From an uncultured Bacteroidales bacterium (GTDB lineage: Bacteria; Bacteroidota; Bacteroidia; Bacteroidales; Paludibacteraceae), in contig CAIKVR010000436.1 in the NCBI GenBank assembly GCA_903830915.1, positions 1-38,771 of the forward strand: 38,771 bases of DNA, read 5' to 3'. Below, piece after piece: positions 254 through 34,280 of this stretch; the first letter of the stretch is position 1, and every line of letters begins with the position of its first letter. Position numbers and translations under genes: made by a program. Below the pieces are notes generated by a model, which saw only the letters and a program-made list of their open reading frames with translations, had not been told where the DNA came from and did no database searches.

Positions 254-319
254 TAAAAGTAGTGGGTGTTTTTTATAATTGAATATGCTTTTTTATCCAA
301 ACATGATACATTTTCGACA
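254..319 (-). promoter_or_regulatory. Promoter copy A: 35-bp direct-repeat element plus -7 box
   Basis: On the minus strand the 35-bp element at 319-285 starts TGTCG and holds half-sites AAAATGTAT and AAAAAGCAT, 21 bp apart. After exactly 23 bp comes TACTTTTA (261-254), one base from the Bacteroidota -7 consensus TANNTTTG. The layout matches copies B, C and D base for base in spacing. It faces the gene starting at 136, giving a leader of about 110 nt. The regulator is not identified; a direct repeat two helical turns apart suits a dimeric activator such as an AraC-type or hybrid two-component protein (inference). Confidence 0.7.
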
Positions 320-345
320 ATTTAATATCATTATAGCGAATATTC

Positions 346-361
346 CTGTATAATTATACAG
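346..361. repeat. 16-bp perfect palindrome
   Basis: CTGTATAATTATACAG reads the same on both strands. It sits in the gap between the stop of the beta-helix protein (382) and promoter copy A. Flanking GAATATTC (upper-coordinate side GAATAT) adds an imperfect outer dyad. No uridine run follows on the minus strand, so an intrinsic terminator is not clearly supported. It could be a protein-binding site or a transcript-end structure. Confidence 0.5.
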
Positions 362-381
362 TACATTCTCAAAAGAATATG

Positions 382-3300
382 CTATTTAACGATTATCTTC
401 ACTTTGCAGTTGACTTCATTTTGTACAATACTTAAAACATAAATTCCGCTTTTTAGATGAATTGGATATGCGTTATTTCCCGATTGCAGTTTAATTTCAT
501 CCATAATTCGTCCATTCAAATCTACAATTTGTCCTATGCAAGGTTTTGATACGTTTGGCAATGAAATAGTGAGTGCTTGATACTGCGAAACAGGGTTCGG
601 CATCACATTTACATCGATTTGTTTTATCGAATTAATGGCAGTGGTTGCTTGTTGTACTATGTTCACTTTTTGGGTTTCGTTACATCCCAGCAACCAAATT
701 TCTACGGTTCTTGCTTTGGTAGAAACGGGCGCTGTAACTGTTATCGTATTGCCATCAACTGCATAACTAAAAAATGTGTCCGCTTTTTTATTAAGCAGAT
801 TTGTAATGTCCAATTTTTTAGTCAGGGAGAATCCTTGATCTGCATTAACAGTAAAGCTTTTAGTGCCTCCCGATAAGTCGAAATTAAGCGTATTTGTTGA
901 CGTTGAAATAGTACACAGTTTAGTGCCCCTTTCGATAGCTCCTGCATCGCGTTTTCCAATTGGTAAGTTTCCGGCAAAGTCTTTCAGGAATGGGCCGTTG
1001 AATTCCCATTTGTAGAGTTCTTCAATGCTGGTTTTGGCATCCGCCAGTGTTCCTTTTGAGATGCGTAGAAAATCGATAGTTCCGGCAAAGAAATTACCAT
1101 TCATGTTTTTGCCTATCAATATATCATTTGCATTCGATATATTTGCCGAAGGCGGTATAGATCCAGTACTTGTCCCGCTGGCAATCACACCATCGATATA
1201 TATGGCACAGGTTTTCGTTTGTCTGTTGGTTTCCACCAATACATGATGCCAATTGCCATCGTTTATAGGTTTCGATCCCGAAAGACCAAAGATAGAGGCG
1301 CCATTGTTCATTAGGTCGAACAAAATATTGCCATCGGCATTCACCGAAAGTTGATAGCCGTAACCTGTAGCACCAAATTTCGATAAAAGTGCTCCTTGGG
1401 TAATGCCTGGATTCGTTTTAAAATAGGCTTCCATAATTGAATTATTGGTCACCATATCTACATTGTTGCACACCAAATTGCTCGATAAGGCACTGCAATA
1501 GGTTTGCACGCCATCAAAAACCAATGCTGCATCGGCAAAATCTTCCAAATCACCTTTTACAAAACTTTGGGCATTCAATCCATACGCTTTTAAATTATTT
1601 TTGGCTACATTTTTGTAGGTTTCGCGACTTGTAAAATCACTGCTGAAGTAGAAATTCTCGCCTTTAATAATAGTTGAATCGGCTTTGTGTTTCTGAAAAT
1701 GCCATTCGCCCACCACGGCACTGAGTGGAAAAGGAGCAAAAAATTTCACGCCCTGGTCAATCACTTCGCTGGTAACAGTTGGACGATAATCGTTTTGTGC
1801 TGGATTCTCGAATGCCCTTGCTGAAGTTTCAAATCCTGTCTGTGACAAGTCTGCTTTGTAGGATTTTAAACTAGAGATAAAACCATCGAGATAATACCAT
1901 ACTGTACCATTATCAAATTTACCCCTAAAATCTCGCCCACTGCTGAAATTATTAGCAAACGATTCATAAGAAAGTCCTGCTGTTGTTGCCGCCTGTGCAA
2001 AAGAAAATTGACAACTATCAGCCACATTACCCAAATAATAATTACGACCATCCATCGCTAAATTGCCACCACCCGAACCGGTTAATGATGCCGAATTGTA
2101 GGCATCGTTGTGCACCCACATGTTGTAAAATCCGAGTACCTGATTGTAAGCCGCACCTGTTTTAGTCCAGCCCTTGCCTTTTACGATATTATTAAATACG
2201 TATTGTTTAAACCCGCCATCGAAATAAAATGGATAGCCCAAACTCGAAGTTGTACCATCAGTATTGTATTTAAGGCCCTGTGCATCTTCTGAAATATTGT
2301 TATATGTAAATACAGGACCACCTTGCCAGGACTCAATACCGCCATAATCATTTACACCTTGTAAGCTATGTGACACCTTGTTGTGATGAACAAAACCACG
2401 AATAAAAGGAACATTCGTACTGTTACCATCGCTTTTTCCCCAAGTGAAATTAAGTGCACTCCCCCAAGCATGTTCAATGATGTTTCCAGAAATTTCGCCA
2501 ACGGTAGGAAATCCGGCAAAAGCCATGATAGCACTGTACCAACGTCCCTGGTGACGCGTACCGGTTTCGAAGACTTTATTTCGTTGCAGGGTTACATCAG
2601 CCATTCCCGTAAAGAAAGCCGAGAAATCGTCCATGTAATTCATTTCATTGTCGGTAAAAACGATATTGTTGCCAACTCCGGGACCTGTGGTTTGAAGTCC
2701 GCCATTCAGGTATTGGAATTTGCAGTTTTTCACCACATTGTTTGAACAAGTACTCATTTTAATGGCTGCAATACCTTCATCTCCAAACCGAACCGCATCG
2801 TTGGTCGTAAATCCGAAGGTAAGCCCACTTATTTCTACATAATTATTAGCCGACAAGGTTAATAAGGTTGATTCTTTGGCTATTTCTATTGTGGTCGTGT
2901 TAGGATCTTTGTCGTCTTCCAAACGAATAAACATTCTCGATCCGTCGTAATAATACTCTCCGGGAACATCCAGCATGTAGGGCGTGTTTTCGGTATAATA
3001 GCGACCGTTCTTTCCAGCAAAATTGGGATCACTCACCGTAATCGAGTTTGTTGCGGCATTGTAACTGTTAATCGGTTGCTTCCAAAGGGTACACATCACG
3101 ACGGCATTGTCTCCTTCGGTAGCCCACACATCACCGCCTGTAAAATAATTGGCTGGAAGTGTAAGGTTTTTTGTATCAGTAAATGTTGATCCAGACTTCG
3201 AGGTGACAGTCCACCATTTCTGCAGGGGCTCATTGGGAGTATCAACGAAGTTTGGCGTACGTGCCAAACGAACACGTTTAATTCCCGTTGGTGTAACTTC

Positions 3301-3879
3301 GCACACCACTTTTGGGCGATTGAGTCCGGAAACTGTTTTATACCAAACCGATGTGCCGTTTGGAATATTGGGTGCCACCGAAGTACTTCCTTTGGTCCAG
3401 CCACCGGTTTGTTGCACCGAGCCGTAAATGGCAGCCTCGCCTGTTCCCCAAGCAGGGTCAGATATCAACCGGATTGGATTGCCCGCCACACCCGATTCTT
3501 TGGCAGTTAATGCGCCACGATAAATGACGCCGCGTTTGAAGATATAGGTTTGAATACCACTGGCTGCGAGTGCAGTTGAAGTTGCAGCTGCATCCCATGG
3601 ATGATGCTTCCAAGCCGTGGTGGTGGTCAGTCCATTGTTATTGTCATTACCACCATCGAAATCGATGTATCGCACCGAACTGCCTTGTACAAAAACGAAA
3701 GGAAGTGGTGTCCATTGTAAATCACCTCCGGGTAAAACAGTAGCCTGAGGAGTTTCCCACGAATAAAGGGTTGTGGCTGTTCCTGCTTTGGTGTTTTTTG
3801 CGTTATTGGTTGCTGTTACCGATTCAAGTACAAAAATGACAGAAATAAATACGAATGCTGCAAAAATGTGAGATTTCAT
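382..3879 (-). CDS. Secreted beta-helix/LamG/BACON-like protein with T9SS tail
   Basis: This 1165-residue protein has a signal peptide (MKSHIFAAFVFISVIFVLES) and probably acts outside the cell on polysaccharide. An N-terminal region with YIDFDGGNDNNNG, usual at the start of right-handed beta-helix lyase-like proteins, leads into repeated short beta-strand motifs with Asn-rich turns (about 340-620). A LamG/concanavalin-like domain follows (about 785-950, with DGNWHHVLVE). A BACON-like beta-sandwich (about 990-1085) ends in KVNIVQQA. The last roughly 75 residues, from NVMPNPVSQYQ to the GIYVLSI and KIIVK end, form a type IX sorting domain. It is a single-gene unit behind promoter copy B. No catalytic family could be assigned with certainty; a polysaccharide lyase or a glycosidase of the beta-helix type is likely. 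Confidence 0.85.
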   Translation of the reverse strand: MKSHIFAAFVFISVIFVLESVTATNNAKNTKAGTATTLYSWETPQATVLPGGDLQWTPLPFVFVQGSSVRYIDFDGGNDNNNGLTTTTAWKHHPWDAAATSTALAASGIQTYIFKRGVIYRGALTAKESGVAGNPIRLISDPAWGTGEAAIYGSVQQTGGWTKGSTSVAPNIPNGTSVWYKTVSGLNRPKVVCEVTPTGIKRVRLARTPNFVDTPNEPLQKWWTVTSKSGSTFTDTKNLTLPANYFTGGDVWATEGDNAVVMCTLWKQPINSYNAATNSITVSDPNFAGKNGRYYTENTPYMLDVPGEYYYDGSRMFIRLEDDKDPNTTTIEIAKESTLLTLSANNYVEISGLTFGFTTNDAVRFGDEGIAAIKMSTCSNNVVKNCKFQYLNGGLQTTGPGVGNNIVFTDNEMNYMDDFSAFFTGMADVTLQRNKVFETGTRHQGRWYSAIMAFAGFPTVGEISGNIIEHAWGSALNFTWGKSDGNSTNVPFIRGFVHHNKVSHSLQGVNDYGGIESWQGGPVFTYNNISEDAQGLKYNTDGTTSSLGYPFYFDGGFKQYVFNNIVKGKGWTKTGAAYNQVLGFYNMWVHNDAYNSASLTGSGGGNLAMDGRNYYLGNVADSCQFSFAQAATTAGLSYESFANNFSSGRDFRGKFDNGTVWYYLDGFISSLKSYKADLSQTGFETSARAFENPAQNDYRPTVTSEVIDQGVKFFAPFPLSAVVGEWHFQKHKADSTIIKGENFYFSSDFTSRETYKNVAKNNLKAYGLNAQSFVKGDLEDFADAALVFDGVQTYCSALSSNLVCNNVDMVTNNSIMEAYFKTNPGITQGALLSKFGATGYGYQLSVNADGNILFDLMNNGASIFGLSGSKPINDGNWHHVLVETNRQTKTCAIYIDGVIASGTSTGSIPPSANISNANDILIGKNMNGNFFAGTIDFLRISKGTLADAKTSIEELYKWEFNGPFLKDFAGNLPIGKRDAGAIERGTKLCTISTSTNTLNFDLSGGTKSFTVNADQGFSLTKKLDITNLLNKKADTFFSYAVDGNTITVTAPVSTKARTVEIWLLGCNETQKVNIVQQATTAINSIKQIDVNVMPNPVSQYQALTISLPNVSKPCIGQIVDLNGRIMDEIKLQSGNNAYPIHLKSGIYVLSIVQNEVNCKVKIIVK

Positions 3880-3910
3880 TATAGTTTCATTAGAAGATTA
3901 TTATCCGCAA

Positions 3911-3976
3911 CAAAACTAGACTATTGTCACCAATTTAAAGTATGTATTTTTATCTTTCTATGATACTTTTTCGACA
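3911..3976 (-). promoter_or_regulatory. Promoter copy B: direct-repeat element plus -7 box
   Basis: On the minus strand the element at 3976-3942 begins TGTCG and carries half-sites AAAAAGTAT and AAAATACAT with a 21-bp period. Exactly 23 bp on is TAGTTTTG (3918-3911), a full match to the Bacteroidota -7 box. A poor -33 region (ATTGG) suggests activator dependence. The predicted start of transcription lies about 25 nt before the ATG at 3879. The remainder of the gap 3880-4103 shows no gene and no convincing terminator. Confidence 0.8.
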
Positions 3977-4103: not shown

Positions 4104-5177
4104 TTACAATATAATTTTTTGAGTAAAAATTGATTTATTTTCTTTAACTACAGCTACATAAAATCCTTTTTTAAAGGCATTTACATCCAATTTTATGTTT
4201 TCGGTTAATACAGTTTCTAAAACTACACGTCCCGAAATATCCAATAGTTGAAATGTTGGCTTGTTCCAACTTTCGTCAAGCTTATAATTCAGCTGTTTAT
4301 TTCCATCAACCCAAATTGTTGTTCCGGTATTTTTTATAGATTTAAATCCAGTGGAACCGCTATTATCGCTCAAAACCATGCTTCCAAAATTATAGGCATA
4401 TTGCCAGGAACTATTGTTGTCTGCCGGATTTACAAATTTAGAGGAGAAAAAATTATCACGCACCGGATTTACTGCTGAGTTGTCATTGTCGCAATAATTC
4501 ATGGTCAAGCCCATTGCTTTTCCAACAGTTAAATTAGACTTAAATAATGTGGGATTATCTGTTGGAGTATAGTTACTTGTCAGCGCCATTAACGAAAATT
4601 CCCATGTATATTTTGTGCCCACATTGGTACGTTTAAATTCAGGAAAATGATTTTTGTAATTCACGTAAATACCTCCTGACCAGTTAGGTGCATTTGGTGC
4701 GCTATCAAAAATATCAATCGCATCGTAATCTGTAGTTGTATTTCCGCTTGTTATGTGGTAAGCAAAAGCGTTATTATTGGAGGTGTGGTCACCACCCGAT
4801 CGATCTTCATCAATAAAAAGCTCAACCACATCAAAGTTTGGATACGATCCATTGAATTTATCGTAAACATATCCATTTACAAATTTATCGTCGGTAATTT
4901 CTACCAAAAAATAAAGCAGTTGGGTAGTTTTGTTCCAAAGCACCTTAAACCGACCTGTAAAATCAGCTGCAGGAACGGTCTGATTATATGGAATCCATGT
5001 GTAATTCATATCTACCCAACTTGCTGAATTCCAAGCTTCATCAGAGCCGCTTCCATCAATAGTTGGCAAAACTGTGGTGTGCATTGCATTTATGCTATCG
5101 CCTGGATGTTCCATTGCCGAGAGAGAAACAAATACTGAAAATAAAAAAATTACAAGAATGAATTTGAGTTTTGGCAT
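4104..5177 (-). CDS. CBM9-type carbohydrate-binding protein with T9SS tail
   Basis: This 357-residue secreted protein has no visible enzyme domain. A signal peptide (MPKLKFILVIFLFSVFVSLSA) is followed by a family 9 carbohydrate-binding module (about 31-265). Seen in it are the typical PTIDGSGSDEAWNSA entry, the strand LLYFLVEITDD and VVELFIDEDRSGGDH, the usual acidic stretch of CBM9/DOMON-like domains. The last roughly 70 residues form a type IX sorting domain (LDISGRVVLE, KGFYVAVVKENKS, ending QKIIL). It is third and last in unit C, about 105 bp after the GH78 gene. A role in holding substrate or enzyme at the cell surface is inferred. Confidence 0.82.
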   Translation of the reverse strand: MPKLKFILVIFLFSVFVSLSAMEHPGDSINAMHTTVLPTIDGSGSDEAWNSASWVDMNYTWIPYNQTVPAADFTGRFKVLWNKTTQLLYFLVEITDDKFVNGYVYDKFNGSYPNFDVVELFIDEDRSGGDHTSNNNAFAYHITSGNTTTDYDAIDIFDSAPNAPNWSGGIYVNYKNHFPEFKRTNVGTKYTWEFSLMALTSNYTPTDNPTLFKSNLTVGKAMGLTMNYCDNDNSAVNPVRDNFFSSKFVNPADNNSSWQYAYNFGSMVLSDNSGSTGFKSIKNTGTTIWVDGNKQLNYKLDESWNKPTFQLLDISGRVVLETVLTENIKLDVNAFKKGFYVAVVKENKSIFTQKIIL

Positions 5178-5282
5178 TTTGTTTTAATGATTTTTTTAAT
5201 AGTTTAAGTCAACCAATTTCCCAACCATTAAAAAATTTAGGGTCGTTTGGGTTAGGGTTATCTTACAAAATAATCACAATTT

Positions 5283-8060
5283 CTATTTCTGATATTTCGA
5301 ATCAAACGAATAATTACCAGATACAGCTTGATAAACTGAATATCCATTTTTGAATTCTACAAATTTCAGACCTACTGCATTTTCAGCTTTTTGTCCGCCT
5401 TCCAATACTTGTAGTTTAGGCAATGCGGGTACATAAATCAGGGCAGTGGTATTTGCAGGCACACTTACTTTCAACTGAAATTTGGTTCCTTCCACTTTCC
5501 AATCGCTCACAATTCGTCCTACAATGGCATCGTAATATCCTTTGGCGTAGGTGAGATCACCGGTAGGCTGAGGCTTAATTTCAAATTTGGTAAAACCCGG
5601 TGCAGTGGCATTTATCCCCAATAAGGAACGATAAAACCATTCGGAAATAGAACCAAACATAGGGTGATTCTGGGAATCTACCAAGTCAGGATAAGTCCAG
5701 TTTTCATAAAAAGTAGTCGCTCCATTGGCCAACATATTACCCCAACCCGGGAATTCCCGTTGATTGGCAACGGTATAAGCCACATCATTGCGGTTTTCGG
5801 TACGGAAAAAGTCAAACATAAATTTGGTGGCAAAAATACCAGTGGATAAATGACCTTTGTGTTTGTTGAAAATTTCAAGCATCAAACGATCAACTGCTGC
5901 ACTTCGCTCATTTTCGGGAACTAAATGATAATTCAATGCAATAAGTTGGGCTGCTTGTGTTCCATTATCGAAAACGCCTGTTCCAACTTTTAAAAACCGA
6001 GCCACAAAAGCAGCTTTGATGTCGTTAGCAAGTATCTGGTATTTAGCAACATCATTCGATTTATTGAGCAGTTTTCCAAATTCGATCAGAATAAGCACAT
6101 GATGATAATAAAATGCAGTAGCCGAAAGGGCTATCGGTTTTTTATCCAAACTGGCATGGTCGGCAATACATTTTTCTACGATATGATTGGGTGTTACCGA
6201 ATGCATAAAGTCGATCTGCTTCTTGAGCATCTCGTAATTTTTCTTCACAGTGCTGATATCCCCATAAAAATCGTGTAGCACTTTCATTCCGTACGGAAAA
6301 GCCAACTGCCAGCCCGGAGAGCCTGTATCTCCGCCCATCGATTCGGAATTGATACCCACATTGGGGGCGACTCCTGGCATACCACCGTTAGGGCGTACAT
6401 CGTTGGCAAAATCTTGCACCACTTTTCGGTAAAAACTGCTCATGTCGTAATTGTAGCTAAATGACTCGGCAGTAGTGACTACATCGGCACCGTAACCAAG
6501 CTTTTCGCGGGCAGGACAGTCGCTCTGTATGCTAAACACATTGCTCATAAAGGTCCATTTGGCAACCTCCTGAATTTTGTTAAACATCTGATTGGAGCAT
6601 TCAAAGCTACCTGTTTCCTGCAAGTCGGCATTCATGCGGATTCCTTCCAAGATATCCAAATCGGGTTTTTGTGGCAAACCAGTCACTTCAACATACCGGA
6701 AGCTGGAAAAAGTAAACTCAGGGGTAAATATTTCTTCACCAGCACCTTTACATATATAGGTATTGGTATTTATGGGGTCTTTCGGGCAACCTGGTCCGCC
6801 ATTCAAGTTCCACATCTCTTTGAGCATTCCGGCTATTACGGTATAATAATTCAGCGTTCCGTCGGGGTGAATGTCCTCGCCGCCACGCATGGTAACGGTA
6901 GTGCCAGATGGAGCTTTAATCTTCAAGCGAGGAACACCTGCAAAGTTTTGTCCAAAATCGAAAAGATAAACGCCCGGTTTTGGTTCGGTAATTTTTACTG
7001 GTTTTAATATTTTGGTGGCACGCACCGGAGGTATATATTGCGCAATTAATTGTCCTTTGGGTCCGTCTTCCAATTTTGCATCTTGCCATTTTTGGTCATT
7101 AAATCCGGAAATATTCCAACCGTTTTGCTCCAATCGGGCATCATATTTTTCACCCAAATAAATGCTATTCGTTAAAATAGGACCATCGCCGGCTTTCCAA
7201 CTTTGGCCTGTAATAATAGTTTCTGTTTTGCCATTGGTATAAGTAATCCGCAATTGCGCTTTCATACATGGCTTTCCAACAGTAAGTACATTTCGAAGAT
7301 TAAATTCCGTAAAAAGCTTGATGGGCATGGGATTGTACCAGCCATTTCCAAGCATCACGCCCATGGCATTTTCACCTTTCTTGAGCAGGGAAGTAACATC
7401 AAAAGTGCTGTAAATAATTTGCTTTGCATATTGTGTCCAAGGCATATCCAGCATGTTATTGCCCACCCGTTCGCCATTGAGATAGGCAATTGAATAGCCC
7501 AATCCGGCAATATAAAGGCGTGCCGATTTCACTTCTTTTTTTAAAACAAACGCTTTTCGCAGCAAAGGGTTTGGAGTTTCCTTGTAAAAATCGGCATCGC
7601 TGGTAGGTAAAGTTCGCTGGTCCGAAATCCATTTGGCAGTCCAATCACTCGCTTTCATCATACTGGTTTCGAACCAGGTAGGCGCACTCCATGCAGCTAT
7701 TTTTCCATTTTGGTCGGTTATGCGTACTTTCCAAAAATAGCGGGTGAACGATTGCAGTGGTTTACCAGCATAGGTAATTCCAAAAGTGGCATTGGACATT
7801 ATTTTACCTGATTTCCAACTATTTCCTTGTCCTTTTTCCAGTTTAATAAGGTTGTCGCTCACCAGTATTTCGTAAGCCGATTGCGCAATTCCCTTTTCCG
7901 AAGATTGCATTATCCAGCTAAATTCAGGTACGGCATTGTCAAAACCAAGTGGTGTAGAGCGATAATCGGTTTTTAACTGGCTGATTTCAAGCTGTTGACC
8001 AAAGGTTAGCGAAGTAATTATTAAAAATAATAATATGGGGGCTAATTTAAATTTAGACAT
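5283..8060 (-). CDS. GH78 alpha-L-rhamnosidase
   Basis: This 925-residue enzyme releases terminal alpha-L-rhamnose. The start is placed at 8060 because the signal peptide (MSKFKLAPILLFLIITSLTFG) begins there; an upstream in-frame ATG at 8087 would overlap the preceding gene and add nine residues before the peptide. Order: Ig-like N-terminal domain, beta-sandwich domains (SARLYIAGLGYSIAYLNG), (alpha/alpha)6 barrel and C-terminal beta domain. In the barrel, DCPAREKLGYGAD gives D514, E519 and D526 with the 5- and 7-residue spacing of the GH78 acid cluster. TTFYENW gives the probable base E786, and NHPMFGSISEWFY is a family signature. It is the second gene of unit C, between an SGNH esterase and a CBM9 protein, so probable substrates are acetylated rhamnose-bearing glycans. 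Confidence 0.93.
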   Translation of the reverse strand: MSKFKLAPILLFLIITSLTFGQQLEISQLKTDYRSTPLGFDNAVPEFSWIMQSSEKGIAQSAYEILVSDNLIKLEKGQGNSWKSGKIMSNATFGITYAGKPLQSFTRYFWKVRITDQNGKIAAWSAPTWFETSMMKASDWTAKWISDQRTLPTSDADFYKETPNPLLRKAFVLKKEVKSARLYIAGLGYSIAYLNGERVGNNMLDMPWTQYAKQIIYSTFDVTSLLKKGENAMGVMLGNGWYNPMPIKLFTEFNLRNVLTVGKPCMKAQLRITYTNGKTETIITGQSWKAGDGPILTNSIYLGEKYDARLEQNGWNISGFNDQKWQDAKLEDGPKGQLIAQYIPPVRATKILKPVKITEPKPGVYLFDFGQNFAGVPRLKIKAPSGTTVTMRGGEDIHPDGTLNYYTVIAGMLKEMWNLNGGPGCPKDPINTNTYICKGAGEEIFTPEFTFSSFRYVEVTGLPQKPDLDILEGIRMNADLQETGSFECSNQMFNKIQEVAKWTFMSNVFSIQSDCPAREKLGYGADVVTTAESFSYNYDMSSFYRKVVQDFANDVRPNGGMPGVAPNVGINSESMGGDTGSPGWQLAFPYGMKVLHDFYGDISTVKKNYEMLKKQIDFMHSVTPNHIVEKCIADHASLDKKPIALSATAFYYHHVLILIEFGKLLNKSNDVAKYQILANDIKAAFVARFLKVGTGVFDNGTQAAQLIALNYHLVPENERSAAVDRLMLEIFNKHKGHLSTGIFATKFMFDFFRTENRNDVAYTVANQREFPGWGNMLANGATTFYENWTYPDLVDSQNHPMFGSISEWFYRSLLGINATAPGFTKFEIKPQPTGDLTYAKGYYDAIVGRIVSDWKVEGTKFQLKVSVPANTTALIYVPALPKLQVLEGGQKAENAVGLKFVEFKNGYSVYQAVSGNYSFDSKYQK

Positions 8061-8073
8061 ACTAATTGTTTTA

Positions 8074-9163: not shown

Positions 9164-9229
9164 TAAAGATACAACTATCCTAAATCAAAAATCCATACCA
9201 TCTTAACTGATTATGATACTAATTCGACA
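9164..9229 (-). promoter_or_regulatory. Promoter copy C: direct-repeat element plus -7 box
   Basis: On the minus strand the element at 9229-9195 begins TGTCG and carries half-sites AATTAGTAT and AGATGGTAT, again 21 bp apart; it is the most diverged copy. Exactly 23 bp downstream is TATCTTTA (9171-9164), one base from TANNTTTG. It drives the SGNH-GH78-CBM9 unit starting at 9087, with a leader of about 70 nt. Confidence 0.72.
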
Positions 9230-11829: not shown

Positions 11830-11841
11830 GGTTTAAAATAG

Positions 11842-12831: not shown

Positions 12832-12913
12832 ACGGTTATGCACGAAATATGATTATACGTTGTGTTATTAATCTTTTCATAAAAATCTATATTTAGTTGA
12901 TTAATTGTTTAAT

Positions 12914-12928
12914 TTTAAACTGTTTAAA
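12914..12928. promoter_or_regulatory. Palindrome upstream of the Gfo/Idh/MocA gene
   Basis: TTTAAAC, one central base, then GTTTAAA form perfect 7-bp arms. It sits 83 bp before the ATG at 12831, in the 134-bp gap that separates the oxidoreductase from the trehalase-like gene. It could be an operator for an internal promoter, but AT-rich palindromes also arise by chance. Confidence 0.35.
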
Positions 12929-12965
12929 GTCCACGAACAAACAAGTTAGCTTGACAAATATCGTA

Positions 12966-14378: not shown

Positions 14379-14428
14379 TTTTGTATCAGTTTTTTTTGAT
14401 TTTATCAAACCTAAATTGGTTTTATCGT

Positions 14429-16831: not shown

Positions 16832-16865
16832 ATATTATTGTCTTAAATTTAATATTTATAAAATA

Positions 16866-20159: not shown

Positions 20160-20253
20160 AATATTTATTTAAAACGTCAAACGAAAATATTTATATTCCA
20201 GGATTAGTAAGCATCAAGATGCCTTATGGCATAACTGAACAAAACTTATGGTG

Positions 20254-21318: not shown

Positions 21319-21339
21319 ACGAAAAAAATTGTTTTAAGC

Positions 21340-22683: not shown

Positions 22684-22697
22684 TTTATATTTTTCAA

Positions 22698-24119: not shown

Positions 24120-24131
24120 TTGTCTATATTA

Positions 24132-25841: not shown

Positions 25842-25849
25842 GATTTTTA

Positions 25850-26755
25850 TTATCTATATTGCGTATTATTAAAATACTGTAAATTACAGAGTAAGCTGCG
25901 TATTGTATTTTCATTCCACACATGACCACCTTCGGTTTCGTTGTAAATATGCGGAATTTTCAACTCATTGAGTCGCTGATGAAAAGCAAAATTTGTTTTA
26001 TATAAAAAATCTTCCTTGCCAACTTCTATTACAAAAGCAATGTCCTTTCGGTCGCGAATATGGTTTACCAGATTGAAGCAACTGTTGAGATGATAATTCA
26101 TCTTATTTGTAAAATAATCTCCCAACAATTTGGTGGCATTATCACCCGTATCGTCCCACGACAAATCTTCTATTGTAGTTCCTAAATTCAACACGCCTGC
26201 TCGTTCTATCGCCACAGAGAAAGTATCGGGATAACGACAAAGTAAACTCACAGCACCATAGCCACCCATACTGAAACCGCAAAGAATGCGTCCGTTCCGG
26301 TTGGTTTCTGTTCGGTAGTTATTGTCTACAAATGCTGTTAGTTCCTGACTAATGAAAGTAGCTATTTTGCTTTCTTTTAAAACAGGTGAATCCATAAAAT
26401 AGGTATTACCAACAAGCGGAATAACGATTATTACACGGAAAATGTCAGCCATTTCCTGCAAACGTGTGGATGGATTATTCATTTGTCGCAAACCCTCTTC
26501 GGTGAAAGGCATGTCATTAGTACCATACAGCATGTAAACCACCGGATAGTTTTTTTGGTCTTTTTCGTAATTTGCCGGTGTAAAAACCAACATGGGAAAT
26601 TCACGATTCATACAATTACTCGTAATTTTCATGAATTTACCGTATGATTTGTCTATTTTTTCAGCAACAGTGTAACCTTGATGTTGAGAAAATACAGAAG
26701 TGCTAAAAACGAAAAATGGGACGAGTAAGAAGTAGGTAAAAAAATGTTTTTTCAT
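25850..26755 (-). CDS. CE1-like alpha/beta-hydrolase esterase
   Basis: This 301-residue exported esterase is of the esterase-D/feruloyl-esterase type. The catalytic triad is visible: S162 in GFSMGG, D249 in VGKEDF and H278 in GGHVWNE. The N-terminal stretch FPMLVFTPANYEKDQKNYPVVYMLYG is typical of the family. The signal peptide is MKKHFFTYFLLVPFFVFSTSVFS. It is the first gene of the tight esterase-GH13-GH125-GH28-SGNH cluster and follows the GH27 gene by 66 bp. Removal of acyl decorations from glycans is inferred from family and context. Confidence 0.85.
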   Translation of the reverse strand: MKKHFFTYFLLVPFFVFSTSVFSQHQGYTVAEKIDKSYGKFMKITSNCMNREFPMLVFTPANYEKDQKNYPVVYMLYGTNDMPFTEEGLRQMNNPSTRLQEMADIFRVIIVIPLVGNTYFMDSPVLKESKIATFISQELTAFVDNNYRTETNRNGRILCGFSMGGYGAVSLLCRYPDTFSVAIERAGVLNLGTTIEDLSWDDTGDNATKLLGDYFTNKMNYHLNSCFNLVNHIRDRKDIAFVIEVGKEDFLYKTNFAFHQRLNELKIPHIYNETEGGHVWNENTIRSLLCNLQYFNNTQYR

Positions 26756-26821
26756 GCGATTGTTTGTATTATTATGATTTAATTATTCCCAACTCAAAGA
26801 AAATTTTCCATAGTGAATCAA

Positions 26822-28342
26822 TCATCTACAAGGTTTTACCTTTAGTAGAATAACGCCATGCGGTTCAACTTTTGCACTAAATTTCGATTTATAACTACCT
26901 ACATCTTTATGAAGCCATAAATCCCGTAGCTGCTGCTTGCCTTTTAGCTGTATATCCGAAAAATTCAAGGTGACCGTCACTGGACTTAATCCCGTATTAA
27001 ACAATCCTACCGCCTTTGAACCATCTTTGAGGTCACGTGCCCATATTTGAACATTCCCTTGTTTTAGAATTTGTGTAGCCTGTTTTCCCAAGGCATCCTG
27101 ATCGATGACTATAACTTCTTTATTGCCTAAAATCGATAAGGTCTCAGCTGACATGGTACTCAGGTCATTTCCTGCCATGAGCGGCGCAGCAAGCAAGCAC
27201 CAAAGACTGAAATGGGTACGATATTCGATGGAGCTCATGCCTCCATTGCCAACTTCCAGCATGTCGGGGTCGTTCCAATGTCCCGGTCCGGCATAGGGAG
27301 CTAGCGAGCTTTGGCTGAATCCAATCTCCGACATTGATTTCCAGTTGTCCTGAATATCGCCGGTTGTACGCCACAGGTTACCCCCAACTTGAGTGCCCCA
27401 TTTCCAAACATCGCCCATCCCATATTCACAAAGGCTGTAAACAATGGGACGTCCGCTATTTACCAGGGCAGTTCCCATTTTCTGAAAAGCGGCTTGCAAC
27501 TGCTCATTGGTATAAACCCTGGCAGCACTGCACCAGTCGTATTTAAGGTAATCGATGCCCCATGAAGCGTATGTCTTTGCATCCTGCTCTTCATAACCGT
27601 AACTTCCTACATAACCACCGCAGGTAAGTGGACCGGGTGAAGAATAGATGCCTAATTTTAGACCTTTTGCATGAACATAATCGGCTAATTTTTTCATGTT
27701 CGGAAATTTATCATTCGGAACTATATTTCCCTTCAGGTCGCGAGAGCCTTCCCAGCAATCATCGATATTAATATACACATAGCCCAATGCGGCCAACCCG
27801 CTATTCACCAGTTGATCGGCAGCAGCCCGCACTATCGAATCAGTTACATTAGCCCCAAAATGGTTCCAACTATTCCACCCCATAGGTGGCGTTTGGGCAA
27901 GTCCATTGGAAGGTACTGTGGTTAATGCCGGAAGAGGAATAAATGTTGGAGGTTTTGTTTCAGACTCCGGCACTTGGTAAGCTACACCCTCTTCCCAAGG
28001 TTTATTGGTATGCGCAATGACTACCTTTAATTTATCTCCAGTCATTTTAAGGCGATAATCGCGATTCCAATCAGTGCTAAAAACGGCTTCGTCTGCCTCC
28101 ATTCGGGGCTTGGAAAACGATAGATCAACTGCACCGTTAATAACAATTGTACCCTCAAACAATTTATTATTCGGACGAATAATAAAATAGGATGTGAGGG
28201 TAACGTTCCCAGGTTGAACCATATCCAACCGCCAAGTTCCGAAAAGAGTGGACGGACAAACTGTTGATTTGTCGGCATTATGAGCCATTATGGAGAAGCT
28301 GGTACCAGTCAGAAATAAAAGGGCAAAAAGAAGTTTTTTCAT
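26822..28342 (-). CDS. GH27 alpha-galactosidase with N-terminal beta domain
   Basis: This 506-residue exported enzyme hydrolyses terminal alpha-galactose with retention. The GH27 core starts at TPPMGWNSWNHFG (151-163). The nucleophile is D269 in YLKYDWC and the acid is D329 in RTTGDI; INIDDCWEG and GHWNDPDMLEVG are further signatures. The C-terminal antiparallel domain ends in ILLKVKPCR. Between the signal peptide (MKKLLFALLFLTGTSFSIMA) and the core is an extra domain of about 110 residues (STLFGTWRLDMVQPGNVTL to VAYQVPES). This predicted small beta-sandwich or lipocalin-like module may bind glycan. It follows a 275-bp gap, so an internal promoter is possible, though I see no copy of the locus element there. 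Confidence 0.93.
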   Translation of the reverse strand: MKKLLFALLFLTGTSFSIMAHNADKSTVCPSTLFGTWRLDMVQPGNVTLTSYFIIRPNNKLFEGTIVINGAVDLSFSKPRMEADEAVFSTDWNRDYRLKMTGDKLKVVIAHTNKPWEEGVAYQVPESETKPPTFIPLPALTTVPSNGLAQTPPMGWNSWNHFGANVTDSIVRAAADQLVNSGLAALGYVYINIDDCWEGSRDLKGNIVPNDKFPNMKKLADYVHAKGLKLGIYSSPGPLTCGGYVGSYGYEEQDAKTYASWGIDYLKYDWCSAARVYTNEQLQAAFQKMGTALVNSGRPIVYSLCEYGMGDVWKWGTQVGGNLWRTTGDIQDNWKSMSEIGFSQSSLAPYAGPGHWNDPDMLEVGNGGMSSIEYRTHFSLWCLLAAPLMAGNDLSTMSAETLSILGNKEVIVIDQDALGKQATQILKQGNVQIWARDLKDGSKAVGLFNTGLSPVTVTLNFSDIQLKGKQQLRDLWLHKDVGSYKSKFSAKVEPHGVILLKVKPCR

Positions 28343-28617
28343 TTTATAAAAAGATATTTATATGCATTTATGTTGCTTATGTATTCCTAAGAAGCCGAAA
28401 TCAGTTATTTACAAATCATCATTTAACCAAAGTACGCTTCCAAAATCCAATACACGATCAGTTTTCTATCAAAAATTCATTGGAGGAGGAACATCTCCTG
28501 CCGCTGTAGCCCATTTCATATTGGGATTTTTTTATTTCTAGTTCAATGTAGCGTGCTGTCGTCACTAACTCAAAAATTAATTCTGCACGATTGCTTATAA
28601 ATGATACGCCGTAATAT
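28343..28617. other. Intergenic gap, possible coding remnant
   Basis: This 275-bp gap lies between GH27 and the GH78-like gene. No promoter element of the A-D type and no TANNTTTG box facing GH27 were found. On the minus strand at 28519-28469 a 16-codon frame (MKWATAAGDVPPPMNF, then TGA) looks more protein-like than chance and may be the tail of a lost gene, but there is no homology to support this. Confidence 0.3.
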
Positions 28618-30375
28618 CTAACGAATAACTTTAATCCCTTTGGGCAAAGTAATGGTTGACTTTATGCTACCATCATTCCGTTTTTCATGTTTTAGGTATA
28701 TAACGCCTAGTGGAGTTGGATACGTGCCTTCTACCCATTTTAAATCGCCCAAATGAGGTTCGATTCTAATTTTCCGGCAACCAGCTTCAAGTACCGTAAC
28801 TCCCAATACATGTTGCGATAGCCAAGCTGTTGGCCCTGACGACCAACCATGGCAGAAGCTATTGCGCAAACCTTTGTAACAATAAGCTCCATATTGAGCG
28901 TGTACATCTACTTTCCCAACGGGTGTTATCTCATCAATTCTGCCTGCATTTTCCATCCATTTTAGATCAAAATCTTCCCAAAAAGTGGTGGCTCCTAAAT
29001 CAATCATGCCACCCCAATAGTTTCGAATTAAATCTATGGCTCCGGCATAATCACCTGACATTGCCCGTGCTTGAAGTACGTAATATCCGTAAAAAGTTGA
29101 AATCCCCTCCGTCGGTTTAACTGACAAGTAATCCTGATTTACTTTTTTTGCATCTTCCAATTGCGATAAGGCCAATAATGCAGCAGCCGATTTGCTCTGA
29201 TTCGGGTCTGGAATATGTTTTTTAAGTAACTGTTTAGTGCTAGTATATTGTATTTCTTTCTCCTTTTGATTAAATAGGGTTGCTATTTTTACACCGGCAT
29301 CAAAAGTCATTATCATCATCGATTGTAATCCTGCATGAATAGCTTGTGAATCCGGACTGGTTGGCCAATCAAGGAAACGCCATCCATCTAAGTTTTCTTT
29401 CCCATCTGCATCGATTTTTTTCTCTAGCAAATCGAGTGTAGCATACATGTAATCCATGTTTTTTTCCAAGTATTTCACATCTCCATTGTTCAGATACCAT
29501 TGATATTGTATCAATATCCACCACATAGAATACGAACTTATCCCATTCATATAGTCGGGCAGTTTTGTAATATTGCGTGTCAGGTCGAGACTTTTTGGCA
29601 CCACTTCATTGTATCCAAACACCGAAAGGATGGTCATTACTTCTGGATGCATATCACCTATCCATACCAATCGATCCCGTTTAATACCATCCCAAAGAAA
29701 ATTTTGCATATTCAAATAAACCGTATAGGCACCTGTTTGCCAAATCTGGTTCAATCGATCATCGTTCGACTTAAATGAACCTAACCATGGGATATCTCGT
29801 TGAACGGCTATTGCTCTAATTTCTTTCAGTTTAAGTTCTCTTTTTTGGTCGAGTAGTTCGATTTTCACAAACCGGAATCCACTATTTCCAATTTCTATTG
29901 ACCCCAACGAAGGCACAGAAAATTCATATTCTCGAATAGCATGATCGTTCGTAGCAGATGATCCCTCTACTTTGCTCATCGCTTCACTCACTGATTCTCC
30001 CAAAGTAATTTTCACTTTTATAGGCGAGTTCCCGGCACACATCCCCGTTACTAACTGAATACCTCCATGCATTTCTTTACCAAAATCAAAAAGAATGGCA
30101 CTATTTACCTTATCCCCTCCTTTTATGACACATAAATTATCACTTAATAAATCGGGTTGACCATTGCCGGCTTCCAATAGTTTTTGCGAATTTATTATGA
30201 ATTGTCCAGAAGTGTTCGATTGCCATACAATTTTCAAAGGAGTAACATATTCCCTTGTAAAAATGTCTGGTTTTCTTGTATTGCTAAAGTTCTGAGTAAG
30301 CTGAGCGTTACAAAAATCTATAAATACAAAAAATGTCAGTACTACAATAGTGATTATTCTTAAATTCAGTCGCAT
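28618..30375 (-). CDS. GH78-like alpha-L-rhamnosidase, short form
   Basis: This protein of about 585 residues has a start chosen at 30375, where the signal peptide MRLNLRIITIVVLTFFVFID begins; in-frame ATGs at 30384 and 30435 would only lengthen the n-region. It has one beta-sandwich domain (about 25-195), a barrel and a C-terminal beta domain. In the barrel, WDGIKRDRLVWIGD gives D229, D234 and D241 with the same 5- and 7-residue spacing as the GH78 acid cluster of the enzyme at 5283-8060. Asp replaces Glu at the middle position. GATTFWEDFD supplies the probable base E467, and CHGWSSGP is a family tail motif. It lacks the extra N-terminal domains of the longer enzyme, so specificity probably differs. 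A 195-bp gap (30376-30570) separates it from the interrupted upstream gene. Confidence 0.85.
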   Translation of the reverse strand: MRLNLRIITIVVLTFFVFIDFCNAQLTQNFSNTRKPDIFTREYVTPLKIVWQSNTSGQFIINSQKLLEAGNGQPDLLSDNLCVIKGGDKVNSAILFDFGKEMHGGIQLVTGMCAGNSPIKVKITLGESVSEAMSKVEGSSATNDHAIREYEFSVPSLGSIEIGNSGFRFVKIELLDQKRELKLKEIRAIAVQRDIPWLGSFKSNDDRLNQIWQTGAYTVYLNMQNFLWDGIKRDRLVWIGDMHPEVMTILSVFGYNEVVPKSLDLTRNITKLPDYMNGISSYSMWWILIQYQWYLNNGDVKYLEKNMDYMYATLDLLEKKIDADGKENLDGWRFLDWPTSPDSQAIHAGLQSMMIMTFDAGVKIATLFNQKEKEIQYTSTKQLLKKHIPDPNQSKSAAALLALSQLEDAKKVNQDYLSVKPTEGISTFYGYYVLQARAMSGDYAGAIDLIRNYWGGMIDLGATTFWEDFDLKWMENAGRIDEITPVGKVDVHAQYGAYCYKGLRNSFCHGWSSGPTAWLSQHVLGVTVLEAGCRKIRIEPHLGDLKWVEGTYPTPLGVIYLKHEKRNDGSIKSTITLPKGIKVIR

Positions 30376-30570
30376 GGTATGCATGGTATATTGTTGTTTT
30401 ATTTCAAGTTTATTTTTTCTTGCTGCTAGAAGCATAAATAATTTATAATGTCAAAATAGATGTGACAAAATTTTACAAACGATAAGTCGCAAAGAATGTT
30501 TTTGGTTATGATATTGTTTAACTGCGACATAGCGTTCAAAACACCACATTATTTTTGTCGTATTTTTGAC

Positions 30571-32235
30571 TTAAAACAGAACAACAACAACATTATTCCC
30601 GTTTGTGTATATTATTTTTAGGGCTCCCCCTTCATCAAGTTTTTTCCACAAATAACCTTCAGCATTCAGTTTGGTTAAAGATTTTAATTTTGCACCCGAA
30701 ACAGTAACCGATTTGGGTTTGGATGTTACACGTAATACCACTTCCGATTGATTATCATAAGTTGAAAAACTTATTTTATTTTTTTCGTATTTTATTTTTT
30801 GGACAACCGAACTAGATTTTAGTAAATGATTTCCAGCAGGCACCCATTCTGGTATTGCAGCCATCCCCTCCATAAAGTGACGAATATAATCGGTATAACC
30901 ATCGGAGAACCAAATTTCAGTGCCCCAATTATGACCGGTTTGCACAACACCATCAGGTTCACTCATATAAGTTGCATGATTAAAGTAACGATATGCTTCT
31001 TCTTTGAACCATGCATCGCCTGTACGTTCGTACCAAAGAGCACAAATGGACGCATAACGAGCGGTATGGCTTCCCATAGGCAAATAACAGCCAGTTTGTT
31101 CGTTAATTGCATTCATACCCGGCTCACTAAAGGTATTTTTTACCCACCAAATTAAACCAGGTACTGTAGTAGCAATATTAGGATCTCGATTAGGATTCTT
31201 TATTATGTAACGCGCCATTTCCATGGGCGAATTATTTACTCTATTCAAATTTATTGGATCGATACGAATGTCTTCGAAATAACCTTTCCAGATGGATGTT
31301 TTCACAGGACCTTCCGAAGTAAATAACCAATACCAAACGATTTCAGATGCTTTTTGATAAGCTGCAACTTTGTCTGCCGGTAGTTTTTCGCGACTACCAA
31401 TGCGAATTAATTCATCAATTAAACGTAAGTTTTCAACCACATGAGAGGTGTAGTCTTAGGTAACTTCACCCTTTTCAGCTTTCACTCGAAAAGGCCACGG
31501 AGATGTAATTTTTAATGTTGGCCAATATAGTCCTTTATTATCACTTTTACCCTTACGCACACGTTTTGCTAAAGCATCGGCACACTGAATAGCTGCTTCG
31601 AGATATTTCTTTTCGCTTGTAATTTGATAAAATTTTAAATAATGAATTCCCATTTCTCCAATTTTATCTACTTCCAACGCATAAGAGCCATCGCCTCGAC
31701 CAATATTTTCTTCTGTTCTGGCGGTATCAAATTTAGATGCTCCGTCGTAAATAATTTCACCAGCTTCCGAACTTGCATAAGGTACAGATGCCCATTCCCA
31801 ATTTGAAGGAGTGGTGCCGTACTTAAGTTGATGATCGAGCGCCAGACAGGCTATTGAAATCATAGATTCATCACCTGTAAAATTCCGCCAATCTATAGCC
31901 AAACTTTGTACTATGCCGCCATTTACTACAATTGGATTATGTGGCCAATCAGAACCAAAAAAGCCGCCTTTTCCATCCCGATACATTGAACAGTGTGTCA
32001 AATACAAAGGAAGATGGTTTGTAGGACTCAACGGACAATTTTTCCAAAAATTAACTGCTTGTTGTACTACTTTTTCATACGCTGCCCCTGGTTTTTGAGG
32101 CATATAGCGTGCTAATAGTTTACCTGAGTTATCAAGGTTTACTTTTGCGCCACACATACTGTCTACTTTATATTGTGCATATACCAGAACCAAGGTTCCG
32201 ATTAGAAAAAAAAAGGTGAAAATGAGCTTTTTCAT
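30571..32235 (-). pseudogene. Exported (alpha/alpha)-type glycan-active protein split by one in-frame TAA
   Basis: Two open stretches, 32235-31459 and 31455-30571, are in the same frame and separated only by a TAA at 31458-31456. Read through, they give 554 codons with one stop at codon 260: ...AEKGEVT, stop, DYTSHVVENLRLIDE.... The protein starts with a signal peptide (MKKLIFTFFFLIGTLVLVYA). It shows helical-toroid motifs on both sides of the stop (QSLAIDWRNFTGDES, MGIHYLKFYQITSEKKYLEAA, SHTARYASICALWYERTGDAWF, EAYRYFNHATYM) and a C-terminal beta region. A single substitution from CAA, AAA or GAA would explain the stop. The family is not recognised; a glycosidase or lyase fold is likely. Recent inactivation or a sequencing error are the main explanations. 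Confidence 0.82.
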
Positions 32236-32313
32236 TTGATATATATTAATTTGAACTTTTATAAATTCGAAAACATAATTTGATAAAAGAATTTAGTATA
32301 ATAAACAGTTTCC

Positions 32314-33885
32314 CTATTCATTCACCAAACCCTTATCCACATTCATCAATTTTTTTGTAGAAAACACAGTAATGCTCATTCCGGGTATTTTATCCTTTAT
32401 TTTCAAACCACTTGTTTCTTTTAATGGATTCATTTTTACAGTATTTTTGTTGCGCTGACAGTAATCAAACCGATAAGTGTACCATTTTTTGTAATTGTTT
32501 TTTCCTTTTATCACAAAATTAGCATTAAGTGTTTCTTGCTTGTCGTTTACCACCAATATGGTTGCTTGAGTTTTGTTCGGACTAATAAACGACGCCACAT
32601 GTAACGCAGGAATTGAATCTTCGGGCGAATAGTTTGAAATGTCAGTTTTCACTACATACGATTTTCGGTAAATATAACGGTTAAGCATTCCGTAACCATA
32701 ATAGGTGTTTTCCTTGGGTTGGTATTTTTCAGGGTTCAACATTTTAAAATTCTTACGGTCGTAAGTCTCGATAAAGCCCCATTGACCATCCAAATTATTG
32801 CGGTTTAGTAAACTCCAACGACTAAAACCATCCACACCCAAGTTGCTAAATCGTACTGCAAATTCAACATCCTTCAGCATTGCGGCGTACATTGATGGGC
32901 CACGATCGTCACGTTTAAGTCCAAACTGCATGGTGCCGTGTTCTGAAAAGAAAAAGGGCTTGTTATTGTCATGAGCAATTTTTACTGCAGCTTTTACTGG
33001 TTCGGAAAACAGTTTCAAGGTTGGATTCCAATCTTTACTTTCGCGATTATCCCACCAGTCGTTTATGGTCATGTACTCGTGATAAGTAAAGGCATCCACT
33101 AAGAGTGTATAATTTTTTTGAGTATTTTGCGATTCCCAGAAATAAAACATTTCTTCGGGACCTGTCATGGCAATCTGAATTTTTTCCATTTGTATTTTAC
33201 TTCGCAATAAAGTGAGTGCAGGAATAATTGATTGCGAAGTGCGTCCATCTGCATTTTTCCACCACGACCAGCCATGATGCGGTTCGTTGGCAATCCCCAA
33301 ATAACTGATGCAGGTATATTTTTTTACGTACAATAAATGTTTTAGCAAAGCAATAATGCCATCCGACCATGCATCAATATCGGCAGGTCCACTTTTGATG
33401 ATTCCCAAAGCATCGCTTTGCAATTCTTTATGAGCTAGCCATTTTGCATTGGGGTACATTTCCTGCAATTGAACAGTTACGCCATTCTTCTCGAAATAGT
33501 CGAGGTAACGGTACAATACCTTCATCTCCCTGTTATCGAAAGAAAACTGTCCTTTTTCGGGTTCAAAAACGCGGTGTTCCACACTCAAACGGGTATAATC
33601 CATGCCCAACCAGTCCATGTACGACTCGATTTTTTCCCACGCATTTTCATCGTTTGCCTCAGGAGTTGCACCCCATGAGCTTCCACCCCAACTGCGATAA
33701 CCACCGTTGCACTCGTTCAGCACCACCACCGAATCCATAATGGCAAAAGTATTCATACCAAATCCTGCAGCCATTTTATTGACTACTGAGTCGGTGTTTA
33801 TACTGATTTTTATTTGTGAAGTAGCCATTAAGCTTTCAAAACAAACAAGGAACGAAAAAATTAAATATTTTAATTGTGTGTTCAT
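32314..33885 (-). CDS. Clan GH-A glycoside hydrolase
   Basis: This 523-residue exported protein is predicted to be a retaining TIM-barrel glycosidase. YLGIANEPHHGW (195-206) carries the acid/base E201 in the usual Asn-Glu-Pro, and FFFSEHGTMQ (311-320) carries the nucleophile E315. The C-terminal roughly 120 residues are a beta-sandwich (HVASFISPNKTQATILVVND), as in GH30, GH39 or GH5 relatives. I cannot fix the family. The signal peptide is MNTQLKYLIFSFLVCFESLMA. It is the first intact gene after promoter copy D, and a fragment of another gene lies between. The gap to the next gene is 78 bp. Confidence 0.82.
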   Translation of the reverse strand: MNTQLKYLIFSFLVCFESLMATSQIKISINTDSVVNKMAAGFGMNTFAIMDSVVVLNECNGGYRSWGGSSWGATPEANDENAWEKIESYMDWLGMDYTRLSVEHRVFEPEKGQFSFDNREMKVLYRYLDYFEKNGVTVQLQEMYPNAKWLAHKELQSDALGIIKSGPADIDAWSDGIIALLKHLLYVKKYTCISYLGIANEPHHGWSWWKNADGRTSQSIIPALTLLRSKIQMEKIQIAMTGPEEMFYFWESQNTQKNYTLLVDAFTYHEYMTINDWWDNRESKDWNPTLKLFSEPVKAAVKIAHDNNKPFFFSEHGTMQFGLKRDDRGPSMYAAMLKDVEFAVRFSNLGVDGFSRWSLLNRNNLDGQWGFIETYDRKNFKMLNPEKYQPKENTYYGYGMLNRYIYRKSYVVKTDISNYSPEDSIPALHVASFISPNKTQATILVVNDKQETLNANFVIKGKNNYKKWYTYRFDYCQRNKNTVKMNPLKETSGLKIKDKIPGMSITVFSTKKLMNVDKGLVNE

Positions 33886-33922
33886 AATTGTATTAAAATT
33901 AGACTTTCATAAGTGTTAGTTT

Positions 33923-34207
33923 CTAAGTATTTTCAAATCTGCAAACATTTGTAAACACATTTACAATGCCTTGGTTATATATTTCCACAAATTGAAGATC
34001 ACTTGGCAACATATTGCCACTCTCGTCGGTTGCTCTAAATTTGCTTCCGGCAATAAGTGCATCCATTATTTTATCAAAAGGCGAATTATATTCATTTGCC
34101 AAATTAATAGCACCCACCAATCTGTCTTCGGAACTTAGTTTGCGCATTAAATCGCATCCGACCCTGTAAATGGTGTCACCTAATGCTTTATTCTGAAACC
34201 GATGTAA
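33923..34207 (-). pseudogene. 3' fragment of a mannitol-1-phosphate 5-dehydrogenase-like gene
   Basis: About 94 codons match the C-terminal end of MtlD-type dehydrogenases: HRFQNKALGDTIYRVG, then RKLSSEDRLVGAINLA, IMDALIAGSKF and IYNQGIVNVFTNVC, ending in TAG. The family pattern RF-N-L-D-RVG-RKLS-DRL is easily seen. Intact members have about 380 residues, so roughly three quarters is missing. The open frame extends upstream to a TTG near 34237, but those residues (VVRFYFCIL) are the -7 box region of promoter D, not dehydrogenase. The fragment would lie in the leader of the unit D transcript, before the glycosidase ATG at 33885. A deletion next to the promoter is inferred. Confidence 0.78.
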
Positions 34208-34214
34208 TAGTATG

Positions 34215-34280
34215 CAAAAATAGAATCTTACTACCAATAAATTAAATGCTTTTTTATCTGATTATGATACTTTTTCTACA
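34215..34280 (-). promoter_or_regulatory. Promoter copy D: direct-repeat element plus -7 box
   Basis: On the minus strand the element at 34280-34246 begins TGTAG (TGTCG in the others) and carries half-sites AAAAAGTAT and AAAAAGCAT, 21 bp apart. Exactly 23 bp downstream is TATTTTTG (34222-34215), a full match to TANNTTTG, with a poor -33 region (ATTGG). It faces the dehydrogenase fragment and the long enzyme unit D. Confidence 0.8.

Follow-up and report, generated by a model that had tools for sequence, protein, structure and literature searches.

The window analysed here is a 38,771-nt contig (C436, CAIKVR010000436.1) from the draft genome of an uncultured Bacteroidales bacterium of the Paludibacteraceae. 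It carries a rhamnosidase-rich locus, presumably for a plant glycan, in which a 35-bp element recurs four times on the minus strand, as copies A to D, each time ahead of one or more genes of the locus (Table 1). A sequence-only reading of this DNA had described the same 66-bp layout at these four places, and all four stretches were verified letter for letter: an element of the form TGTMGAA...GTATCAT...TAA...AT is followed by 23 bp and then by a -7 promoter box. Pairwise, the copies agree at 23-29 of 35 positions in the element, at 3-12 of 23 in the spacer and at 14-26 of 60 in the 60-bp flanks (ungapped). With flanks this dissimilar, the likeness of the elements is not accounted for by a recent copying of the entire region, and plain duplication was rejected as the origin of A-D. 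An RNA structure family was likewise rejected, since an Rfam search of the window gave no matches at gathering score.

Table 1. Putative promoter elements and predicted target genes in the window. E values are per genome (1.9e-12 to 3.5e-8) and come from a sequence-only model that has A-D among its 36 training sequences, hence they are not independent. T9SS, type IX secretion system; GH, glycoside hydrolase; ORF, open reading frame.
Feature	Position	Strand	Basis
Copy A, 35-bp element (21-bp direct repeat)	285..319	-	own-genome pattern scan; model E 1e-10
Copy A, -7 box TACTTTTA, 23 bp from element	254..261	-	sequence
Copy B, 35-bp element	3942..3976	-	own-genome pattern scan; model E 1.9e-12
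Copy B, -7 box TAGTTTTG	3911..3918	-	sequence
Copy C, 35-bp element, weakest among A-D	9195..9229	-	own-genome pattern scan; model E 3.5e-8
Copy C, -7 box TATCTTTA	9164..9171	-	sequence
Copy D, 35-bp element	34246..34280	-	own-genome pattern scan; model E 2.5e-12
Copy D, -7 box TATTTTTG	34215..34222	-	sequence; G188/G192 comparison
Target of A: secreted-looking protein running off the window	ATG ~134	-	ORF; cut by edge
Target of B: 1165-aa Laminin_G-like protein	382..3879	-	weak T9SS sorting-tail match, 21.8 bits against a cut-off of 27
Targets of C: GDSL esterase with T9SS tail, GH78 rhamnosidase, CBM9 protein (T9SS-tail match just under cut-off)	4104..9087	-	family searches
Targets of D: long run (523-aa unknown, GH78-like, GH27, esterase, GH13, GH125, GH28, GDSL, GH106, trehalase-like, oxidoreductase, others)	9271..33885	-	family searches
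Remnant frame separating promoter D from the first intact gene; C-terminal part (~91 residues) of a protein in the mannitol-dehydrogenase family	33923..34237	-	G188 comparison

Copies of the element in the genome and the genus

The draft genome comprises 4.74 Mb in 436 contigs and is 87% complete with 4.9% contamination. A pattern built from A-D and allowed up to three mismatches matched it nine times, against no match in the reversed sequence used as control. The window holds four of these copies and contig C30 another four; the ninth is at the end of contig C435. All nine are intergenic, and the first gene behind each encodes SusC, a GH130, T9SS-type or GDSL protein, or a protein that has no assignment but belongs to the same glycan loci. 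On C30 they are susC (C30:28027-31251), a GH130 gene, a 256-aa gene and a 1979-aa gene whose product shares a BLAST cluster with a relative's protein bearing a T9SS tail; the C435 copy precedes a gene cut off by the contig end. The -7 box of Bacteroidota sigma-A promoters, TANNTTTG (consensus from the passages of PMC9723704), follows the five copies outside the window at 23 bp in four cases and at 24 bp in one (C30:31501), and thus stands at 23 bp behind eight of the nine copies. The sequence-only reading had proposed a single regulon and had named in advance a genome scan as its test, to be refuted if the element stood equally often inside genes or before unrelated ones. The nine copies, five of them in data which that reading had not seen, did not refute it. 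It had further suggested looking before susC/susD-type or T9SS genes and near an AraC/HTCS regulator gene; on C30 an AraC-type gene, P0002, lies ~250 bp from a site.

We then surveyed 300 genomes of the GTDB family, 48 from the genus of the window and 252 others, with the 3-mismatch pattern, the reversed control and counting by hand. Outside the genus there was no excess (48 matches against 48 in the control), and the motif was rejected as a general feature of the family. Within the genus, whose near relatives are titled Paludibacter or Bacteroidales metagenome-assembled genomes, among other names, there were 68 matches against 23, so weak single matches are partly chance. Loci were fetched for 42 of the 59 matches outside the own genome, picked by eye as good. 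An element-only matrix (35 bp, built from the nine own copies without the box) was run on 34 chosen same-genus loci and found 46 further sites of at least 17 bits, namely 41 of the 42 fetched matches and five extra ones in the same loci; L077 (G178) yielded none. Although the matrix was blind to the box, TANNTTT(G/A) follows 45 of these 46 sites at exactly 23 bp and the remaining one at 24 bp. All 55 genus copies are therefore followed by the box, 53 of them with the 23-bp spacing and two with a spacing of 24 bp.

The 17 genus matches that were left out (16 with three mismatches, one with two) have the box at 23 bp in no case, and 16 of them lie in frames open across the whole 300-bp stretch. 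They thus look like chance, and the true copies separate clearly; among the 48 checked matches of at least 17 bits, 45 have the box 23 bp away. No frame over any of the 55 sites is longer than 86 codons (600 bp of context on each side). Their first downstream genes include 17 that are susC-like and three of GH130 (by BLAST cluster); others encode GH28, acetylesterase, D-lyxose isomerase, GH2, GH65, GH127 and BNR/T9SS proteins, with Pfam searches run on nine representatives, and there are GH116 relatives too. One site has no downstream gene inside the fetched stretch.

These counts bear on whether the copies resemble each other through residual promoter duplication rather than selection. One pair does look duplicated, copy A and the C435 copy, which precede genes sharing their first 45 residues. 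On the other hand, neither flanks nor spacers match among A-D, copy D has been kept before an orthologous operon in two relatives (G188 and G192) despite diverged flanks, and in other classes the genes that follow this geometry are different ones. We regard duplication as the least plausible of the explanations considered, and the earlier view of the fixed 23-bp spacing as functional geometry is supported.

Anatomy of the element and the core promoter

Over the 53 copies with the 23-bp spacing the consensus is TGTAGAAAAAGTATCATATTnnGATAAAAAAATATGnTTTTT, then TATTTTTGCA; second-order Markov sequences served as shuffles for this matrix. A 21-bp shift is the best direct-repeat register among shifts of 8-29, in agreement with the two half-sites of 21-bp period described in the sequence-only reading; column permutation gives 0.0004 for shift 21 and 0.004 for the best of shifts 15-25. 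At this shift the summed direct-repeat score, at -4.6, stays just below zero (-7.4 for the best inverted register), which indicates that the half-sites are alike but unequal, and in majority letters they read G-N3-AAAAAGTAT and G-N3-AAAAAATAT. The description of the spacer as not conserved is accurate among A-D but not over the 53 copies, where T is frequent at positions 38-41 (0.60-1.30 bits), G is preferred at position 36 (0.59) and A at position 53 (0.74).

Sigma-A promoters of Bacteroidota have a -33 element, TTTG. Here the proximal half-site extends to ~20 bp before the box, presumably to where a -33 element would lie. TTG occurs in this zone in 10 of the 53 copies, no more often than in shuffled spacers (mean 11.1), and a run of T is conserved there instead. 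This supports the earlier remark on poor -33 regions, and we take the layout to be that of class II activation by AraC-type proteins.

The A-rich blocks, recurring every 21 bp, could also be UP-like or bent A-tract elements phased at two helical turns and served by no dedicated regulator. Such elements would hardly account for the strong conservation of G2, G11, C15 and G23 (1.6-2.3 bits), for the restriction of strong copies to a few glycan loci (nine in 4.74 Mb), or for the way in which presence of the element follows one regulator gene, as described below. We consider this very improbable.

A candidate regulator on contig C30

The sequence-only reading had found no regulator in the window and had proposed a dimer of an AraC-type protein or of a hybrid two-component system (HTCS). 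An AraC-family candidate is indeed encoded outside the window, by P0002 (G000:C30:40829-41710; 294 aa). Its C-terminus carries a double helix-turn-helix (HTH) of AraC type (PF12833, 1.7e-23; PF00165, 2.1e-12), with the helices of both HTHs present in the structure model. Its N-terminus, a candidate sensor barrel, has predicted strands between 19 and 95 (block predicted local distance difference test score 71-94), for which Foldseek reaches RhaR/AraC sensor domains at low similarity, and a fold search with the model returns AraC-family proteins. Only AraC HTH families were found in P0002, and not the periplasmic sensor, kinase and receiver which in an HTCS are fused to the AraC HTH over ~1350 aa. 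RhaR (BT3768) was rejected as its identity, given that the NCBIfam models for RhaS, RhaR and AraC score far below cut-off, a judgement made without direct sequence comparison.

Among the 29 AraC-HTH matches of the own genome (27 over cut-off), P0002 is the only one on a site-bearing contig. Its orthologues (at least 64% identity, full length) occur in 19 of the 48 genus genomes; three others have fragments and five have homologues of 49-55% identity. Orthologue and motif (E <=1e-8) occur together in 17 genomes, the regulator alone in two, the motif alone in two and neither in 27 (Fisher 6.1e-9; 1.4e-5 to 3.3e-9 over the nine threshold combinations tried). The homologues of 49-55% identity have weaker sites nearby in five of five loci (11-25 bits). 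Around the ~40% paralogues no site above 5 bits was found in any of seven stretches, three of them under 8 kb (one 2.1-bit match); one such paralogue, in the own genome, is apparently split across contigs C204 and C411. In the first recognition helix Arg220 is invariant in 38 aligned family members and is replaced by His in five aligned ~40% paralogues. One genus genome (G148, L236:13834-15803) encodes a tandem pair of P0002 orthologues, which share 69% and 65% identity with it.

The association extends to distant relatives. P0002 relatives were taken from 80 named loci, the best of 256, and 67 of these loci lie outside the close group. An element-only scan of these 67 at 4 bits gave 50 matches (50 or 51 depending on threshold rounding, five entries being register-shifted duplicates and ~13 expected by chance) against 13 in the reversed sequence, and the box stands at 23 bp behind 20 of the 50 and none of the 13. 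There are 22 distinct boxed sites, 20 at 23 bp and two at 24 bp, of which 13 precede a susC homologue; most are from Flavobacteriia, with relatives in Phocaeicola and Emticicia too, and the half-site in these loci is TGATAAAATAATATTA. Of the 80 loci, 46 contain a GH130 relative, a gene that beta-mannan clusters also carry, and in genera such as Allomuricauda, Salegentibacter and Leeuwenhoekiella a P0002 homologue adjoins a GH130 gene. In G001 and Christiangramia a GH5 or GH26 gene lies beside the homologue, the Christiangramia locus reading GH26, GH26, epimerase, GH130, symporter, AraC, GH5, susC homologue. This is the composition of published marine beta-mannan polysaccharide utilization loci (PULs), one of which has an expressed AraC-type factor and also an HTCS (passages of PMC9860051).

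The sites might instead be bound by an HTCS or by another AraC paralogue, with P0002 merely a neighbour on C30. HTCS motifs of Bacteroides are also direct repeats, with an average spacing of 21 bp (passages of PMC3878776), and 10 of the 29 AraC-HTH matches in the own genome lie in frames of HTCS size (1137-1469 aa). Yet among 44 sequences around sites or orthologues (<=59 kb, mostly <20 kb; tblastn with the P0002 HTH, E <=0.01) an HTCS-sized gene was found only in G034, the ~40% paralogues have no sites nearby in seven of seven stretches apart from the 2.1-bit match, and the distant loci were picked solely by similarity to P0002 but nevertheless contain the site with its spacing. We therefore judge this alternative unlikely, if clearly less so than phased A-tracts.

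Several observations weigh against assigning the sites to P0002, and some of them favour an HTCS. In G034 an HTCS-sized AraC-type gene adjoins a site, and the published mannan PUL of Muricauda contains an HTCS as well as an AraC regulator (passages of PMC9860051). The window and C435 copies differ slightly but consistently from those on C30, with C at position 4 in four of five against none of four, and with GC, AC or GT at positions 32-33 where the C30 copies have AT. Given 4.9% contamination in a draft genome, C30 and C436 may not belong to one organism. G188 (82% complete) has three sites and no detectable orthologue, G170 and G172 have an orthologue and only weak sites, and G079 has a stop-containing orthologue fragment and no strong motif; in G208 the motif is present and the orthologue is a fragment. 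Co-occurrence is, moreover, confounded by shared ancestry and by the location of regulator and sites in one cluster. Two of the left-out genus matches reach 17 bits and have no box at 23 bp. Finally, 45 of the 67 distant loci have no boxed site at 4 bits (22 have one), and several distant loci come from sister species of one genus that were counted separately. In G034 (L045:4130-4821) the HTCS-sized gene stands directly before the site and its susC, and the P0002 orthologue is on another contig; possibly the same site was handed over between regulator types.

On balance, A-D are probably activator-dependent sigma-A-type promoters of one regulon, bound by a dimer of a one-component AraC protein, and from gene context and co-occurrence this protein is most likely P0002. 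Of the two regulator types first proposed, the AraC-type dimer fits the 21-bp direct repeat and the HTCS is the less likely, the gene in G034 notwithstanding. AraC-type class II activators recruit RNA polymerase from a site overlapping a -35-type position. A P0002 dimer would bind both half-sites on one face of the DNA, its proximal half-site overlapping the place of the missing -33 element, and RNA polymerase would be recruited to the TANNTTTG box, downstream of which transcription is predicted to start.

Target loci and comparison with known systems

The targets of copy C, the first of which is 8074-9087, are inferred from orientation and spacing to form one operon, and those of copy D, beginning with 32314-33885, form a putative one. 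In G188 the operon behind copy D encodes D-lyxose isomerase, a 401-aa protein, a mannitol-dehydrogenase-like protein and the 523-aa protein. Relative to it the window lacks ~2.85 kb after promoter D, comprising the isomerase gene, the 401-aa gene and most of the dehydrogenase gene; the promoter was kept. Five window proteins have no Pfam family match (32314-33885, 9271-11829, 14429-16831, 30571-31440 and 31456-32235), and PDB searches with two unknown proteins of the window were uninformative. The first of the five, the 523-aa protein, has counterparts of 86-89% identity in the G188 and G192 versions of the operon; it is possibly a glycan enzyme not yet described. The genes behind copy A (1-134) and the C435 copy (L013:5529-5663), which have different promoters and are both cut at contig ends, apparently are two paralogues, judging from their common first 45 residues.

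With GH78, GH106, GH28, GH27, GH125 and GH13, the window locus is not a typical mannan locus. C30 encodes SusC, SusD, GH130, a T9SS-tailed epimerase-family protein, an MFS transporter, GH3, GH94, GH97, GH116, GH2, a sulfatase and P0002. GH130, transporter, susC and susD are thus all present as in a beta-mannan PUL, whose epimerase is cytosolic, whereas the one on C30 carries a T9SS tail. No GH26/GH5 mannanase was found among the C30 proteins scanned (several ORFs were left unscanned and the contig is cut). The regulon would join this mannan-type PUL to the rhamnosidase-rich window locus, and its effector would be, at a guess, a mannan-derived oligosaccharide.

The right end of the window (35233-38769) encodes DUF3945, DUF4099, Toprim_Crpt, DUF1896 and N6_Mtase domains, a set which we take to be typical of Bacteroides conjugative transposons, and the first 10.5 kb of C30 contain TraG, TraJ, TraM and TraO genes. 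Both PUL contigs may be part of a conjugative element. Because both carry such genes, regulator, sites and targets may travel as a mobile regulon. Tentatively, then, a widely shared activator of beta-mannan loci could have been enlisted in Paludibacter-like bacteria as a wider plant-wall switch, by which a mannan-derived signal also turns on a rhamnosidase/polygalacturonase-like locus; we hold this to be possible, with the odds somewhat against it.

What stands out is a rhamnosidase-rich locus seemingly wired to a mannan-type regulator, which suggests that a single glycan signal can also govern loci devoted to another, chemically different glycan. If the assignment is true, it supplies the beta-mannan loci of many Bacteroidota with a regulator together with its DNA site and promoter geometry, and makes their regulons predictable from sequence. 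The copies would also be a natural series of activator-dependent promoters for studying an AraC protein together with the unusual -7 box of Bacteroidota.

In class II promoters of Escherichia coli AraC/RhaS, direct half-sites lie ~21 bp apart and the proximal one overlaps the -35 region. The core promoter here differs in being the Bacteroidota TANNTTTG box, and there is no evidence for looping or apo-repression. The HTCS regulons of B. thetaiotaomicron likewise have ~21-bp direct repeats before PUL operons, read as sites of AraC-HTH dimers (PMC3878776, in part); the candidate regulator here is one-component, with no sensor kinase, and a fixed distance to the -7 box goes unmentioned in those passages. 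Also comparable is CgrA, likewise a one-component regulator of the AraC family, which plays a positive part in a PUL, although the substrate is carrageenan and the likeness is one of description, not of sequence or site; the carrageenan RNA-seq regulon includes distant susCD genes, whose control by CgrA itself the passages of PMC5698469 do not show. In the Muricauda beta-mannan PUL the AraC-type FG28_RS02325 lies with GH26, GH130, epimerase and SusC/D, much as P0002 homologues lie beside GH130; the two proteins are likened by locus content rather than sequence, and the passages of PMC9860051 give no binding site. The present analysis adds a predicted site and promoter geometry and includes a locus that is not mannan-like. 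The kind of system is therefore known, from direct-repeat AraC-HTH sites before PULs and from a one-component AraC regulator of a PUL (PMC3878776 and PMC5698469, each in part). A literature search in which subscription journals were sparsely covered, judged by title, start of abstract or passages, found no description of this particular assignment. What appears to be new, as predicted from sequence, is thus the specific pairing of regulator, site and promoter geometry.

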